This document shows positions 37,273-44,507 of a DNA stretch of 64,000 nt, piece by piece. The translations under genes and the position numbers were made by a program. Numbering within the stretch: the first letter of the stretch is position 1; every line of letters begins with the position of its first letter. The DNA comes from a virus: IMG/VR virus record IMGVR_UViG_3300035181_000471, positions 157,218 through 221,217 of that record; one strand, 5' to 3'. Below the pieces are notes generated by a model. It had not been told where the DNA came from. It did no database searches and saw nothing but the letters and a program-made list of their open reading frames with translations.

Positions 37273-40200
37273 ATGGCCGCTCAAACTATTAAACTTGTAA
37301 CCACCGGGGGCCAAGCCCCCTACACTTATTCTATCATTCATGATAACCTAACTACTCTCCCTTTGCCTTCCTATCCTCAGCCTGGAAATGCTAGTTACGC
37401 TACAGTTAGCTTCAATATGGGTAGCTCTGAAATCGTAGTTGACGCCACCAATGTCAACCCCGGAACCTACAAGCTCCACCTAAATATCACTGACTCCACA
37501 ACCCCTGTAGCCAAGATCACTACCAAAGTTATCACCATCAAGGTCTTGAACATTACCAAATTTGCCATCCTAAACGAATCTGAATCAGTCATTCCAGGTA
37601 GCTTCCCCTACCAAGGCTATGTCTTCCTAGAAGCCTCTGGAGCCACTGGAGCCGTGACTTGGAGCATTATTGATTCCATGACCACCCTCCCTGGAGCCGC
37701 AATCACCACTGACGGTTTCGGTAATTTAGTAGTGGCCTACTCAACTAGCCAGTATGGTGACTTCACTTTAGGACTCCAGGCTAAGGACAGTTTCAAGACC
37801 GTAACTCGCACCCTCACTATTAGTGTGATCGCTCCATCTGCCTACAAGTTAGTAGACGGTCAGGTCGAAGTAGTTTTTAGTGACGCAGGATACACCGAAG
37901 GAACTCACACCTTCAGTGTCAATGTAACTGACTCTCAATCCTCTCCCGCCTCCACCGCTCGCTCCTTCGAATACCTACTTCAGCCAGCTATCTCTACAAT
38001 CCATGTCCCCCAATCCTTCGTAAAATACTGGCACATGGACGATACCAATGAGGTCTATTTCCCCATCACTGGAACCTTATCAGGGCTTTCCATCAAGGAT
38101 TCTAGCGGAACCTTCTCCAATGGAGTGACCTATAGCGTAGAGGGTGCCGCCAGAAGAATCAAGTTCTCAGGGCCTCCAACTGTAGCCGAGAACTCCCAGC
38201 TTGTCATCCCAATTAACTTGCAGTTTAGTAACACTATCGTTGCCTCTGTGTCCAAAACTTTCACAGTGCCAGCTTTCGATGGTGCCTATGACGAGTCATC
38301 TATCTCCAGCAGTTGCTACACTAGACCTCTAGTGTCGGGTGAGTTCTTCTCTCTAAACCCCCAGAAACCTTACTACAACTCCCCCAGCATTGAGCGTCAC
38401 ACTTGGACCGCCAGAGTAGCGTCTGGGAACACCCTCCCTCAGGGCTTGAGCTTGGATGCCAACACCGGACTTATCTACGGAAAGCTTCTAGCTACGACTC
38501 CTCAGACTACATCTATCGAGTTCGTGGACCCCAACACAAAGCTCGTTAAGGGAATCATTGTCATTCACTTTGACATCGTAGCTTACGATTTCTCCTTGGT
38601 TGAAACCCTCTCGGCGGGTGCCGTGTCTTTCCCCTACACCGGATTGATCTCCACCACCTCTAATTCCGATCTGCTAGACGCCACTCTTTACTCTGGCACT
38701 CTCCCAAGTGGCCTAACCTTGGGCGTGTCAAGAACTCTAGCAACTGGTATTCTAACTTTCAACCACACACTATCCACTATCGCTAGAGCGGGTGGAAGTT
38801 GGGTTGATGATGCCGTTCACATTGGTAGCCAGCTTGTGTTCTCTGGCTTCACTACCACCGCAAACAACAAAACCTTCACCGTTACAGATGTCACTCCCTC
38901 CACTATTACCGTAGCTGAAAATGTTACCCTAGCTACTGAAACTGGTGTGGTTACTGCTAAGACTAAGGCTGTTATCTCTGGAACTCCAACTGAGTCCGGT
39001 CACTTCGACCTCTGGATTAAGGTGAGAAATGTGGATGGTAAAATCGGGCTCCTATACAAGAGGTTTGAAGTATCCTACTCCACTCCGCTCTCGGTTATCA
39101 CCACCTCACTCCCAACTCTAACCAATCAGCCTTATGCTGGAGTTCTAAGCGCAGTAGGTGGAACTGGCGTGTTCACTTGGAGCCTAAATTCCGGCTCCCC
39201 CGCACTCCCCGCTGGCATTACCCTATCCTCTTCAGGACTCCTAAGCGGAACTTACGCAGGGTCATCCTACAACCAGAACATCGTAGTGAAAGTTGTGGAC
39301 TCTAAGGGTGCATCGGCTACCGCCACTTTGAACTTCGCATTCAGCAACACTCTATCGGTCTCTACCGCAAGCATCCCCAAGATCATTCGTGGAGAGTACT
39401 ACTCTTTCACCTTGAAGGCATACGGCGGAACCGGAACCTACTCTAACTGGACTGTCACCGCTGGTGGGAGCTTACCATCAGGCATCACCTTAAACTCCGC
39501 TGGCGTCCTAAGCGGATTCGTAGCTACTGGAACTGCTTACACTCCAGCCAACTTGACTTTCACCGTTACCGACTCCTCTGCCGCCACCTCCAATAAGGTT
39601 CTAGCAGTAGGTGTGGCTGACGCCGCATCTGTTCTAGCTATTGACACTTCGGGAATCGGGGTGATCAGCAAGGGTAGCAACTATCAAGGTGTCATGAAGG
39701 TTTCCATCGGAGCCTCCACCGCTGTCGGCCCTTTCCACTGGGAAATCGCTCCTGGATCGCCTAACCAGCTTCCCACTGGCTTAGTTCTATCTGCCAACAC
39801 CACTGACTCCGGCATGACTGCCTTCATCTCTGGAAAGTGCATCTTAGCCCTAAGCAACTACTCGGTAAAAATCAGAGTAGTTGATGCAAATGGTCTATCT
39901 GCCACCACTTACATTCTTCTTTCCTCTGTTCCAAGTGTCACTATCTCCACCAAGGCACTATCTCAGGGTAAGGTAACTGAGGCATACACTCAGACCATTC
40001 TAGGTGACAGCGCCAATCTACCGATCACCTTCAGCCTAGACACCCCTCCTACCCTTCCAGCAGGTATGTCATTCAACTCCTCTGGAGTCCTATCTGGGAC
40101 ACCCTCTGGTGTGTATAACAACACCATCAATGTGAGACTCACCGATGCTCTCAATGACTATGTTGTTAAGCCTCTCCTCCTAGTTGTGAAGAACTCTAAT

Positions 40201-40923
40201 CTAGTCCTAACCACCACAAGCATCCCCACCATTTCAAGCGGCAAAGATTGGTCATACACTCTAACCGCCACTGGTAGCGCCGGAGGCTTTAAGTGGAGTA
40301 TCTCTCCTGATTCTACCGTTGGGTTACCTTCCAATGTGCAGTTGAATGAAACAACTGGTGTACTTTCCACTACTGGAACGAACTCTCTAGGAGTTCGTTC
40401 CATTATCTTCAGAGTCACAGACGCAGACGGAACTCACACCGACAAGGCCCTCTCTATGACTGTGGTTGCCAGCCAAGCCATCACCGCTGGACCTGACTAC
40501 ATCAACGGAACCACTCATGGCTATCTCGGTTATGTGAGACAGGACATCGCTTCCTTAACTTCTCAGATTCTACCTAGAAGCTCTAAGTCCTTCTACGCAA
40601 TTCTAACCAATTTTGCATCCACTTCCTTGACCCAGATTTCAGTATCAACTTCAGACCCAGCAGTCACCGCTGTAGCCGAAGCCATGACTGCTTCCGAGGT
40701 TCTAATTAACATCACTCAAGTCCCTGCCAGCACTCTAGGGGACAACACCTTCACCCTCACAATTGTTGATAATGCCACACCAATATCAGCAGTTTTGAAG
40801 TATAAAGTAATTGAAGGAAGAGATGTTAAGGTAACTCTACTAGATGGGTCTACACTTCCTGTCCAGTCCTTCACAGCCGAAGGTTGGATTGGAAGACCCC
40901 AGCCCTCACCAACCACCGCATAA
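37273..40923 (+). CDS. Large Ig-domain (He_PIG) surface protein
   Basis: A 1216-residue protein that opens directly with a He_PIG-type segment ('TTGGQAPYTYSIIHDN') and contains at least five further copies ('GGTGVFTWSLNSG...LPAGITLSSSGLLSGT', 'TLPAGMSFNSSGVLSGTPSG'). Residues about 495-565 hold the 'GSWVDDAVHIGSQLVFSG' module. It is 40 bases downstream of the 2061-residue relative; both end in short intergenic gaps with AGGA/GAGGA boxes. Probably a fibre or adhesin of the virion. The opening inside a domain-like sequence suggests that the two genes arose by splitting or duplication of one long repeat gene. Confidence 0.74.
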   Translation: MAAQTIKLVTTGGQAPYTYSIIHDNLTTLPLPSYPQPGNASYATVSFNMGSSEIVVDATNVNPGTYKLHLNITDSTTPVAKITTKVITIKVLNITKFAILNESESVIPGSFPYQGYVFLEASGATGAVTWSIIDSMTTLPGAAITTDGFGNLVVAYSTSQYGDFTLGLQAKDSFKTVTRTLTISVIAPSAYKLVDGQVEVVFSDAGYTEGTHTFSVNVTDSQSSPASTARSFEYLLQPAISTIHVPQSFVKYWHMDDTNEVYFPITGTLSGLSIKDSSGTFSNGVTYSVEGAARRIKFSGPPTVAENSQLVIPINLQFSNTIVASVSKTFTVPAFDGAYDESSISSSCYTRPLVSGEFFSLNPQKPYYNSPSIERHTWTARVASGNTLPQGLSLDANTGLIYGKLLATTPQTTSIEFVDPNTKLVKGIIVIHFDIVAYDFSLVETLSAGAVSFPYTGLISTTSNSDLLDATLYSGTLPSGLTLGVSRTLATGILTFNHTLSTIARAGGSWVDDAVHIGSQLVFSGFTTTANNKTFTVTDVTPSTITVAENVTLATETGVVTAKTKAVISGTPTESGHFDLWIKVRNVDGKIGLLYKRFEVSYSTPLSVITTSLPTLTNQPYAGVLSAVGGTGVFTWSLNSGSPALPAGITLSSSGLLSGTYAGSSYNQNIVVKVVDSKGASATATLNFAFSNTLSVSTASIPKIIRGEYYSFTLKAYGGTGTYSNWTVTAGGSLPSGITLNSAGVLSGFVATGTAYTPANLTFTVTDSSAATSNKVLAVGVADAASVLAIDTSGIGVISKGSNYQGVMKVSIGASTAVGPFHWEIAPGSPNQLPTGLVLSANTTDSGMTAFISGKCILALSNYSVKIRVVDANGLSATTYILLSSVPSVTISTKALSQGKVTEAYTQTILGDSANLPITFSLDTPPTLPAGMSFNSSGVLSGTPSGVYNNTINVRLTDALNDYVVKPLLLVVKNSNLVLTTTSIPTISSGKDWSYTLTATGSAGGFKWSISPDSTVGLPSNVQLNETTGVLSTTGTNSLGVRSIIFRVTDADGTHTDKALSMTVVASQAITAGPDYINGTTHGYLGYVRQDIASLTSQILPRSSKSFYAILTNFASTSLTQISVSTSDPAVTAVAEAMTASEVLINITQVPASTLGDNTFTLTIVDNATPISAVLKYKVIEGRDVKVTLLDGSTLPVQSFTAEGWIGRPQPSPTTA

Positions 40924-40932
40924 AGGTAAATC

Positions 40933-43140
40933 ATGATCGCACCTCAAGTTAATTTACAGGGACAGACAATTTACCAGTATTACCTTCCTCTCCTAGAGGG
41001 TGAAGCGGGGCAAGTCTATGTGAACAACGGCACCCTAGGGCAGATCAATTTCGATTATTACAATGGGATTACTCCTAGTGTTGCAGACGCTCTAAGTAGC
41101 GGAGTTATTAGAATTTCAAGTGATTCAGATGCACTCCACCAGGGGCGCATAAAGCTAGCCACTTATGGCTCCGGTGTGAGGCTTGAATACACAGGAGCTA
41201 AGTGGGCGGATGTAGCCCAGAGTCTACCTCCCCAATTCAATCTCAATATTGAAGAGGAGGACATCGTTTGGTACGCCCCCGGCAGCGGCTTTGATCTTTC
41301 TGCCATCTCTCTGCCTCTCGTAGTTCCTCCCAATACTCCTACTGGTCCTACCTACGAGTATTCGGGTGGAAGCAAGCTACAGATCAAGGTGTTCCCTCTA
41401 GTGTCCCCTGAGGTGGCTTCAGTCAGTCCTACTGTTCTAGCTGGCGGAGCTACCCAGGACATCACTGTCACCCTTAAGAGGCCCTTACACCCAACTCAGA
41501 CTCCTACTGTGGCCTTCCAGTCTGCCTCGGGTCTTTTAACCTTTAACGGGGCTCCCAGAGTCAATAAAAACGCCTCGGGTGGGATCGTGTCTTGGACCAT
41601 TTCTGTCACCGCCTCTTCTTCCGCCGCTTCCTCTGTCGCAGTCACAATGACCGCCCAGGATGCCGCACTACACTACCTAAGCGGAGATGTGATAGTAACT
41701 CAGGCTTACAATTACACACCCACTCCAATCAATCTTCCAGCCATGTCGATTAGCAAAGCTATCGCCACTCAGCCGCTAGCTATTACTTCCGTGCAAGCTG
41801 TTGGTCCAGACTCCGCTTATGGAGTGGCCGCTACCGATGGGTGGACTGCTACCGCTAGCGGTCAGCAAGCATTCGCCGGTAAGATCGTTGTAACCGCTAC
41901 TGTGTCCTCCCCTGCTAATAACTTCAGTAGCGGATCAGTTATTGCGAAAGCAACCGGAACCACGGCCCGTATCACTCTAGGAACTGCTTCACTTAAGGGT
42001 AGTCCCTATGTCGGAAACAACTCCTCCGGCACAACCCTTTACTACCAGGACTACTACATGGTCGTGGATACCGGACTTCTACTCACTAGAGACCAGTCTT
42101 ATGACATCGGATTCTCTGCTGTAGCTGATGGAGTTACCACTACTTCCTGGATTAATAATGTCTTTGTAAATCAGAACCTAACTAAGCAGTTCACTTCCTA
42201 CAATATGACTGTGAACTTCAGTGGAGCAGCCAGTTACACCGCAGTTGGTATCCCAGCATCTACATGGGTGGCGTCTTCAACTGGAACTTCTGGTGCAGTT
42301 CCCTCCTTGAATGGCGGAGCTTCTTTTGGAATCCAAGAACTCTGGGGCTACAAGTCAGCAGGAGCTTCTTTTGATTCTATCTTGAAGCAAGAGCTTCGTG
42401 TCACTGGCCCTGGAAAGACTGATGAACTCGTCAAGTCTGTTACTGCCAGAGACCCCAATGGCTACCTGGAGATCGCAAATGTTGACACCTCTGCGTGGAC
42501 CGCTGGCTATTACGATTTTGTGTTCAGAATCTACTCTAAGGCTACCACTTACTCCTTCGATGGAGTAAACCAGGGTTACATCGACACTCCCGCTCAGTCG
42601 TTTAGAGTCGCCCACTCCACTGGTGGTGGAGGAGGGTGTTTCGCTGGCAAAACCTATGTCATGACCGTTGATGGTCCCAAGACCATTGATAGCATCAAGG
42701 TTGACGCACTAGTGATGTCGGCCTCTGATGTTGACTTCCAGGCTGGCAACTTCACTCTAACTCCCAAGAAGACTTTGGCAGTTCTAGTCCACGATGATAG
42801 AGCTTACGAAACCGTCAATCTAAACGGAATCCTAACCACTCCAGAGCATCCTTGGGCCACCTCTGATCGTGAATTCACTGAAGTCTCCGAGATGACGGAC
42901 GCCTCCCTAGTAATGTCCGTAGATATCCTACACAATGAAACATACCCTGTTTCAGCGATTCAGATTCCCGGCCCAGACCTAGAAACCGTATACAACCTAA
43001 CTATCGAGGATACTCATACTTACTTGGTTGCCCCCAGTATATTCGGACCTTGGTATCTTGTCCACAATGCCAAGAAGATCGAGTATAAGACACTATGGGA
43101 TATGAACAACCCCGAAGTTAATATCAATAACACGGTGTAA
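40933..43140 (+). CDS. Virion surface protein ending in a Hint (intein-like) domain
   Basis: A 735-residue protein. Residues 1-565 are beta-rich and look like a fibre or adhesin part. A Gly stretch leads to Cys569 ('GGGGGCFAGKTYVMTVDGPK'), the start of a Hint self-splicing fold: block B-like 'LTTPEHPWAT' with the T-x-x-H, then 'VYNLTIEDTHTYLV' and 'WYLVHNA' with the penultimate His-Asn (H711-N712). The residue after Asn is Ala, not Cys/Ser/Thr, so cleavage rather than splicing is expected, as in bacterial intein-like and polymorphic-toxin Hint domains. A 23-residue tail follows. Inference: the tail protein is cut at Gly-Cys during maturation or on the cell surface. Confidence 0.75.
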   Translation: MIAPQVNLQGQTIYQYYLPLLEGEAGQVYVNNGTLGQINFDYYNGITPSVADALSSGVIRISSDSDALHQGRIKLATYGSGVRLEYTGAKWADVAQSLPPQFNLNIEEEDIVWYAPGSGFDLSAISLPLVVPPNTPTGPTYEYSGGSKLQIKVFPLVSPEVASVSPTVLAGGATQDITVTLKRPLHPTQTPTVAFQSASGLLTFNGAPRVNKNASGGIVSWTISVTASSSAASSVAVTMTAQDAALHYLSGDVIVTQAYNYTPTPINLPAMSISKAIATQPLAITSVQAVGPDSAYGVAATDGWTATASGQQAFAGKIVVTATVSSPANNFSSGSVIAKATGTTARITLGTASLKGSPYVGNNSSGTTLYYQDYYMVVDTGLLLTRDQSYDIGFSAVADGVTTTSWINNVFVNQNLTKQFTSYNMTVNFSGAASYTAVGIPASTWVASSTGTSGAVPSLNGGASFGIQELWGYKSAGASFDSILKQELRVTGPGKTDELVKSVTARDPNGYLEIANVDTSAWTAGYYDFVFRIYSKATTYSFDGVNQGYIDTPAQSFRVAHSTGGGGGCFAGKTYVMTVDGPKTIDSIKVDALVMSASDVDFQAGNFTLTPKKTLAVLVHDDRAYETVNLNGILTTPEHPWATSDREFTEVSEMTDASLVMSVDILHNETYPVSAIQIPGPDLETVYNLTIEDTHTYLVAPSIFGPWYLVHNAKKIEYKTLWDMNNPEVNINNTV
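42637..43071 (+). other. Hint self-processing domain
   Basis: Encodes Cys569 to the Ala after H711-N712 of the preceding entry. Key residues: Cys nucleophile after five Gly, T-x-x-H in 'TTPEHPW', and terminal 'LVHN'. Confidence 0.72.
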
Positions 43141-43143
43141 CGG

Positions 43144-43755
43144 ATGAGTAAATATGCTAGAGTAGGTGCCCCGTTTAACTTCCTTGGACATATGTCCTTG
43201 GACCAGAAGAATGCGTTCTATTCTTGGCTCGACTCAAAGAAAGCCAACTTTGCTCCAATCCAAGAGTTCCACCAGATTCGATCCCAGCAATTGAGAAAAA
43301 CTGCTGGACTTTTGGAAGATTTTTACGCCTCGGAAAAGTTGAAACCATCCTTTGCTAAAGCTCCTTGGGAACCGGGGCCGCAGGGCTATTTCCCTTATAC
43401 TCAAAGGGATGATCAGCAACCAGCCGTCCTAGTTCAGCGAATTAAAGAACGAGTGAAAGAACAACTTCAACATGATGACGAAGCCGTATTTTGGATGAAC
43501 TGGCTTAGGACTCACATTGAAAAGCAAGAGGATATGGCTCAGATTGCTAGCGAAGCTTCGGCAGAAATTACCGCCTTGAAGAAAGAATTGGACGCTCTGT
43601 TTGATGGGGGGACCTACGACGCAGTATTAGTTAAAGATACGAAAGTTTATCGTGTCCATCAACTTGATGATCCAACAGAAACGGAAATGAAACGAGTGGC
43701 CTATGACGCCTCGGACAAAAATGGGTATACCATCAAAATGCCAGAGGGGGTGTAA
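43144..43755 (+). CDS. Unknown 203-residue protein before baseplate wedge genes
   Basis: Largely helical in the middle ('VLVQRIKERVKEQLQHDDEA'), with a small beta C-terminus ('YDAVLVKDTKVYRVHQLDD'). Contains 'LRKTAGLLEDF', a KTA motif. Weak ribosome site (CGG-ATG) four bases after the Hint gene stop, and the ATG of the next gene overlaps its TAA by one base, so coupled translation is likely. Position suggests a baseplate or fibre-assembly protein; function unknown. Confidence 0.68.
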   Translation: MSKYARVGAPFNFLGHMSLDQKNAFYSWLDSKKANFAPIQEFHQIRSQQLRKTAGLLEDFYASEKLKPSFAKAPWEPGPQGYFPYTQRDDQQPAVLVQRIKERVKEQLQHDDEAVFWMNWLRTHIEKQEDMAQIASEASAEITALKKELDALFDGGTYDAVLVKDTKVYRVHQLDDPTETEMKRVAYDASDKNGYTIKMPEGV

Positions 43756-44507
43756 TGAGCTATGATTTTGATGTAAGAAATAAAGCCTGTGACCACCTCC
43801 AAACAAAGGAGCGCCAAACTTTATCTGATGATCTAAGAACCTTAGTTAACATCAATCACCCCGAGTGGGGTATTCGTGGTGCTGTAGCTTCGTCCTCTAC
43901 CGTTAAACTTTATATGAATGGTGTGGAGATACCATCCGGCCATGCTCAGTATGCTTGGAGTTTAGTCCCAGATTTGGATGCCTTGGGGGACAAACGCTAT
44001 AAAATCATGTTTGCCAATCAATTACGCTTTACTCAAGCCATTTTTGAAGTCAGCTACTTTACTGCGCCAGCTTACTGCTTGAAGTGCAACGGCTATACCC
44101 AGACTAATGACTTTACCATTAGTTCTCAGGGTTCGTTTGTCCATGTAACCGACCACAACAAGCTCATTCAAAGAGTGATGAAGTTCCTTCTATCCTCGTC
44201 TTGCCCCTTCTATCCTCGGTTCACATCTCGGCTAAAGGAATTTATTGGAAGGAAATTTGGCTTATCTCTTACAGAGGAGGACATTTCTTACGAATGTATC
44301 ACGGCTCTGGAGAACATGAGAAACATTCAAGTTACCCAAAAGAATGTGCAACTCCTGTCCCCAGAGGAAATTCTAAGGAATGTAGAGTCGGTAGATTCCA
44401 AAAGAGATTCAGTAGACCCCACCATCGTAAAAACACAAATTCGCGTTTCCTCCTACGGGCCTGATAGAGTAAATCCTCTAAACTTCGCCATCAGAACAAA
44501 AAATTAA
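43755..44507 (+). CDS. Baseplate wedge protein candidate (gp25-like neighbour)
   Basis: A 250-residue protein directly upstream of the Baseplate_J gene, where gp25/W-type wedge proteins usually lie. The C-terminal half has 'HNKLIQRVMKFLLSSSCPFY', 'LKEFIGRKFGLSLTEEDISY' and a final strand 'YGPDRVNPLNFAIRTKN', an order compatible with the small wedge fold; the N-terminal half is a beta domain with 'AYCLKCNGYTQTNDF'. The assignment is from context and loose pattern, not from strong motifs. Confidence 0.55.
   Translation: MSYDFDVRNKACDHLQTKERQTLSDDLRTLVNINHPEWGIRGAVASSSTVKLYMNGVEIPSGHAQYAWSLVPDLDALGDKRYKIMFANQLRFTQAIFEVSYFTAPAYCLKCNGYTQTNDFTISSQGSFVHVTDHNKLIQRVMKFLLSSSCPFYPRFTSRLKEFIGRKFGLSLTEEDISYECITALENMRNIQVTQKNVQLLSPEEILRNVESVDSKRDSVDPTIVKTQIRVSSYGPDRVNPLNFAIRTKN

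Follow-up and report, generated by a model that had tools for sequence, protein, structure and literature searches.

Type A bacterial intein-like (BIL) domains, which end in His-Asn and have no nucleophile at the +1 position, both cleave and splice, and cleavage dominates over splicing (PMC4031507; PMC7664689). Autoprocessing via a thioester at the N-terminal junction is also described for BIL2 (PMC8616854) and for hedgehog (PMC7664689). The phage intein literature that we found in open-access PMC concerns TerL, RNR, and similar genes, and no paper there was found to describe or test a Hint on a phage tail protein. Domains of this kind are already known; the phage tail setting is new.

We analyzed a stretch of 64,000 nucleotides (the window) that forms the terminal part of a 221,217-base virus record and holds a 735-aa ORF, taken from the ORF list and its translation, with a Hint at its C-terminal end (Table 1). 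Residues 10–200 of this carrier match gp244 of Tunturiibacter phage Tunturi_5, annotated as 'minor tail protein' (tblastn and alignment; 32.7% identity, E 5e-9), which is the only relative of the carrier that was detected. Since neither gp244 nor any other part of the 308,711-base Tunturi_5 record has a Hint, the domain is an accessory of the lineage to which the window belongs. The following genes keep the Tunturi_5 arrangement, including a baseplate gene two genes on, and homology marks the carrier as a tail protein whose gene adjoins the baseplate genes of a large phage, perhaps one with an acidobacterial host. The initial annotation had placed the domain on a fibre; a tail protein it is, whereas a fibre remains unproven, the sole detected relative being a minor tail protein by annotation.

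Residues C569–N712 are a Hint domain in which no catalytic block of the intein type is missing. A profile search set against shuffled sequence, invariant catalytic columns, and the agreement of the predicted fold with solved structures of BILs, inteins, and hedgehog put this far beyond chance. The best Pfam match is PT-HINT (PF07591), which the isolated domain reaches with E 4e-6 and 27.6 bits against a cut-off of 27.7; the window protein scored 23.5 and 27.6 bits here, and exceeded the cut-off with 28 bits when the genome was searched with neighbours in frame. The intein C-terminal region model TIGR01443 gave 14.3 bits against a cut-off of 15.6. A profile was made from 31 Hint domains of phages other than the window's; against it the domain scores 57.3 bits, and residues 561–735, shuffled 1000 times, reach 10.7 at most. 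In a 71-row alignment, partly selected for glycine and with most rows selected for Cys, C569, F570, T574, T636, and H639 are invariant and H711 and N712 near-invariant. All four splicing blocks are present, H695-T-Y697 also lies within the domain, and C569 is the sole cysteine of the carrier protein.

The AlphaFold2 model made from this alignment adopts a Hint fold (mean pLDDT 80, pTM 0.76), with the core mostly above 85, at about 90–98. Its top match among solved structures is 2LWY, the type A BIL of Clostridium thermocellum (26% identity; Z 18.2 and rmsd 2.0 for 133 residues), and further matches include the NpuDnaB intein 4O1R, BIL2 6Y75 and 6TMM, and the hedgehog Hint 1AT0 at Z 16.4. A full-length model is confident only for the Hint and for parts of residues 156–240 and 483–550. 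The C-terminal Hint, its glycine run with Cys569, T-x-x-H, and terminal His-Asn followed by Ala, and the missing +1 nucleophile had all been read from the DNA beforehand, and each is borne out here; the Hint fold is kept in structure prediction. The start given at that time, 42610, lies a few codons ahead of the glycine run, and the Hint itself spans the narrower interval of Table 1.

Table 1. Positions in the window of the carrier gene, the parts of its Hint domain, and the neighbouring genes.
Feature	Positions	Strand	Basis
Upstream 1216-aa protein with repeated Ig-like (He_PIG) domains	37273..40923	+	
Tail-protein ORF bearing the Hint	40933..43140	+	ORF list, translation; residues 10–200 match Tunturi_5 gp244
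Residues 10–200, homologous to Tunturi_5 gp244	40960..41532	+	tblastn, alignment
Residues 483–550, predicted beta-strand domain preceding the Gly linker	42379..42582	+	full-length model, pLDDT about 52–82, moderate to low confidence
Glycine run G564–G568; G568 is −1 of the N-terminal junction	42622..42636	+	−1 Gly near-invariant in the 71-row alignment, partly glycine-selected
Hint domain C569–N712, 144 aa	42637..43068	+	Pfam, profile, AlphaFold2, PDB matches
C569, block A nucleophile	42637..42639	+	invariant in alignment (most rows Cys-selected)
Block B T636-P-E-H639	42838..42849	+	T and H invariant in alignment
Block F VYNLTIEDTHTY, residues 686–697 (V686–Y697)	42988..43023	+	
Block G V710-H711-N712	43060..43068	+	H and N near-invariant; TIGR01443 sub-cut-off match
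A713–V735, 23-residue tail behind the Hint; +1 is Ala	43069..43137	+	low-confidence short helix in models
Next gene, 48% identical to Tunturi_5 gp243	43144..43755	+	
Baseplate protein	43755..44507	+	phrog_2669, E 0.0011; Tunturi_5 gp242 'baseplate protein' in the same place

Among annotated phages, the window Hint matches only those of the Ruminococcus phages NatCom, at 26–28% identity. In these phages (L002, L003) several ORFs per phage share a Hint before differing C-terminal domains, an arrangement reminiscent of polymorphic toxin sets. In a tree of Hint domains the window domain sits on an end branch of 2.3 changes per column and is claimed by no supported group; its nominal partner, L125, was rejected as a long-branch join and the placement discarded. 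Described type A BIL sequences are absent from this tree, and the likeness to them rests on the 2LWY structure match.

Hints of this layout recur on phage tail proteins. A DNA pattern for GGGG-C-F-xxx-T returned at least 120 viral stretches from IMG/VR, and the profile made without the window's phage places a Hint domain at the pattern cysteine in 107 of the 120 listed; since the pattern itself requires the glycine run and the cysteine, this sample shows existence and breadth, not frequency. Separately, L010 was set aside, being a terminase intein in which a single peptide matched by chance. By Pfam and PHROGs the carriers include the central tail fibre J (phrog_31), the tail assembly protein gpI (phrog_32), and the tail-hub family phrog_2048, which comprises minor-tail-L homologues. 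Among the listed matches the Hint is either internal with glycine on both sides (typically VHN/AGLG... or VHN/GGGGK...) or C-terminal. J-type Hints lie near the N-terminus and gpI-type Hints mid-protein, both with glycine-rich sequence on either side, and their +1 residue is mostly Ala, Gly, or Lys. A search of 50,697 annotated phage records with the J-type Hint turned up no J homologue; glycine-flanked Hints inside J and gpI appear abundant in the uncultured phages of L013–L132. In phrog_2048, Roseobacter phage homologues without a Hint end at the point where L070, L072, and L067 add poly-Gly, a Hint, and 12–14 residues, and the Hint there was therefore appended to a complete protein. Together with Tunturi_5, these Hint-free relatives argue that the working protein does without the Hint, which is an addition to it. 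By the pattern search, glycine-junction tail Hints are a broad class in uncultured phages, found on J, gpI, minor tail L, and baseplate-proximal proteins.

Among the 24 C-terminal Hints listed, 17 have His-Asn 3–23 residues from the protein end, the tail of the window protein being the longest, and His-Asn is missing in four members of one related family and in one other. In L047, L088, L102, L113, and L130, a family of C-terminal domains that follow GGGG has block A and G-x-H and lacks the terminal His-Asn. In Hint scoring L047, L088, L102, and L130 pass and L113 falls below the threshold; these may possibly be Hints that cleave at the N-terminal junction only.

We favour, at a probability of roughly 0.6, the reading that residues 569–712 form an active type A BIL Hint fused to a baseplate-proximal tail protein, from which it would remove itself post-translationally. 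It is favoured since all four splicing blocks are present and the predicted fold is nearest to 2LWY, since the catalytic residues are kept despite strong sequence divergence, and since the 3–23 residues that follow His-Asn in most of the listed C-terminal Hints are too few for a released functional domain. We infer each chemical step, the removal of the Hint, and any timing or chaperone role, as follows. After folding, C569 would attack the G568–C569 bond (N-to-S acyl shift) and leave a thioester on the glycine run, and N712 would cyclise and free the tail A713–V735. The thioester could then be hydrolysed, so that the tail protein would end in ...GGGGG and lose the Hint, or the freed amine of A713 could attack it to give spliced ...GGGGG-AKKIEY.... 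By either branch the Hint would come off the working tail protein and would have been a temporary self-removing C-terminal module, present perhaps during folding or assembly; the comparison with the self-cleaving chaperone domains of tailspikes is one of analogy only. The claim that such a domain would cleave rather than splice holds insofar as cleavage dominates and is overstated as exclusive cleavage: an Ala at +1 does not exclude splicing, as type A BILs without a +1 nucleophile splice too, though they mostly cleave. Ala, as in A713, is reportedly also the native +1 residue of the type A BIL from C. thermocellum that Dassa et al. examined in 2004. The proposals of the initial annotation, namely loss of the last 23 residues, release of a part, and cross-linking, are all chemically possible. 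Counting against self-removal, several of the 24 listed C-terminal Hints have no His-Asn, and full processing is therefore not universal; additionally, the domain lies on a long branch outside the supported groups, and the phage is known from IMG/VR contigs whose DNA, carrier gene included, is identical in every one found.

The glycine junction bears on a different outcome. When the last two blocks were searched with a pattern that ignores glycine, at least 120 viral and 115 cellular stretches were returned. Among the matches listed, unclustered, Gly precedes the Cys of Hints without a +1 nucleophile in 81 of 98 viral and 25 of 79 cellular cases; a run of at least four Gly is present in 64/98 viral versus 10/79 cellular BILs. 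After clustering of the listed matches at 60%, Gly at −1 is seen in 15/17 viral versus 28/49 cellular BILs (p 0.036), whereas long Gly runs are seen in 5/17 versus 7/49 (p 0.27). The long glycine run was consequently rejected as a phage hallmark; as only the difference in −1 Gly survives clustering, the run is a frequent and not an exclusive setting. That surviving excess would suit a ligation device, in which the poly-Gly thioester at G568–C569 is passed to the amine of another molecule, such as a Lys of an adjacent virion protein or of the host surface, so that the tail protein becomes covalently fixed. The G-C junction, which resembles that of hedgehog, and the C-terminal position, which leaves no functional C-flank for joining, point the same way. 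BIL2 structures are among the top fold matches, and BIL2 needs no ATP to form isopeptide bonds with several substrates (PMC8616854). No acceptor is known, however, the His-Asn expected of ordinary type A BIL processing is kept, an unhindered glycine favours plain hydrolysis or splicing as well, and the excess of long runs is not significant once clustered, so that we consider ligation unlikely. The wider proposal, that glycine-junction Hints are widespread on the tail-tip and baseplate proteins of phages and pass a poly-Gly thioester to a virion or host amine as an ATP-free covalent bonding device, with the window protein as a member, we hold to be less probable again.

Processing might also stop at the C-terminal cut between N712 and A713, with the Hint staying on the tail protein and only the last 23 residues lost. 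Asn cyclisation can proceed uncoupled, the His-Asn-Ala end suits a type A BIL, and the lost tail is predicted to be disordered or a short helix; but C569 and the T-x-x-H block, which serve the N-terminal junction, are kept as well, and the tails of the other listed C-terminal Hints, at 3–14 residues, are mutually unlike, which gives trimming no obvious purpose and makes this outcome improbable. Were the Hint an inert leftover on the tail, decayed or silent and derived from an intein or pretoxin module, this would account for the missing homing endonuclease and C-extein and for the sequence divergence of the domain, and the related Ruminococcus phage Hints, which join effector-like C-terminal domains, offer a conceivable origin. 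This is nevertheless a doubtful explanation, as the diverged sequence keeps every catalytic residue, the ORF is unbroken, and a His-Asn near the protein end recurs across the C-terminal cases. Other candidates were rejected. An inserted intein with a homing endonuclease does not fit a 144-aa domain that has no endonuclease and Ala at +1, and a canonical class 1 intein does not fit a +1 residue other than Cys, Ser, or Thr with just 23 residues behind the Hint. For toxin delivery or a pretoxin system, no toxin domain lies behind the Hint, where the short tail is followed by a tail gene instead of an immunity gene, and for a frameshift or split C-extein, the stop codon stands at 43138–43140 and the next gene follows from 43144, with nothing Hint-related downstream.

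The same phage encodes a second C-terminal Hint outside the window (G000:C1:135470-135868; L321:9255-9875), in a 206-aa ORF that ends LLNHN/IKN and has the Cys-rich stretch CTCDLNCASDGGCC at the N-terminal junction. This ORF lies directly behind, and is coupled to, a collagen-like fibre gene, and the gene directly after it encodes a radical SAM protein of 455 aa (PF04055, E 4e-16) whose terminal Cys motifs look SPASM-like by eye; this is the only radical SAM gene found in the virus record. One might guess that the second Hint releases a modified Cys-rich peptide. Long collagen-like repeats (GATGNTG...) were observed in several adjacent fibre genes of this phage (L321:523-1974, 5200-9255, 12869-15520, 15529-17814).

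Tailspikes have self-cleaving intramolecular chaperone domains at their C-terminus, and these are the known case of how self-removing C-terminal domains bear on phage tail building. If the tail Hints are active, intein chemistry would be a second route by which tail-tip proteins mature or become bonded, and virion proteins predicted from DNA would carry the wrong ends. The jumbo phage NCTB and the phage of the window are concrete cases in which tail Hints could be tested.

Set against known systems, the domain shows the features of the HINT superfamily (the Hint fold, the block A Cys at position 1, and the block B T-x-x-H) and those of type A BILs (terminal H711-N712 and, at A713, no +1 nucleophile). 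Canonical inteins, such as those of TerL, helicases, and Salicola phage SCTP-2 gp4, share the Hint fold and blocks with it; they have Cys, Ser, or Thr at +1 and a functional C-extein, whereas the window protein has Ala and no C-extein. The Salicola intein (L328:2141-4954; +1 Cys) interrupts the GWAL/CDGSNGTPDL motif of a tail-collar-like fibre protein. Pretoxin HINT domains (PF07591), as in the Ruminococcus phages NatCom, are followed by an effector-like C-terminal domain, in contrast to the short tail seen here. Tetrahymena BUBL1 BIL2 (6Y75, 6TMM) and the hedgehog Hint (1AT0) have the fold in common with the window Hint; BIL2 passes ubiquitin-like domains to lysines and hedgehog its N-domain to cholesterol, whereas for the window protein there is no known counterpart of these acceptors. 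Apparent tandem Hints linked by KGGGG were observed in bacterial L210, L315, L289, and L302, Planctomycetota and Syntrophales among them, where the VHN-KGGGGG end of one Hint runs into the C-F-x-x-G-T start of the next. Closer in setting, the J (phrog_31) and gpI (phrog_32) Hints share the GGGG-C-F..T start and the His-Asn end with the window Hint and differ by their internal place. In NCTB (LT598654, L325) a span of about 8 kb contains three tail genes that encode C-terminal Hints: BN7874_132, _136, and _135 likewise bear them on tail-region proteins, and two start at GGGG-C. Their ends read VHN/APVDQKH, IHN/AVMVAKK, and VHN/KVD; they are annotated only as intein domain proteins, their carriers differ from that of the window, and BLASTP of the window Hint against BN7874_132 gave no significant match. 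The nearest solved domain, the C. thermocellum type A BIL 2LWY (PMC4031507), shares the fold, Cys1, T-x-x-H, the terminal His-Asn, and the lack of a +1 nucleophile, whereas the window Hint, 26% identical to it, stands at the very C-terminus of a phage tail protein, with a Gly run before it and 23 residues behind.
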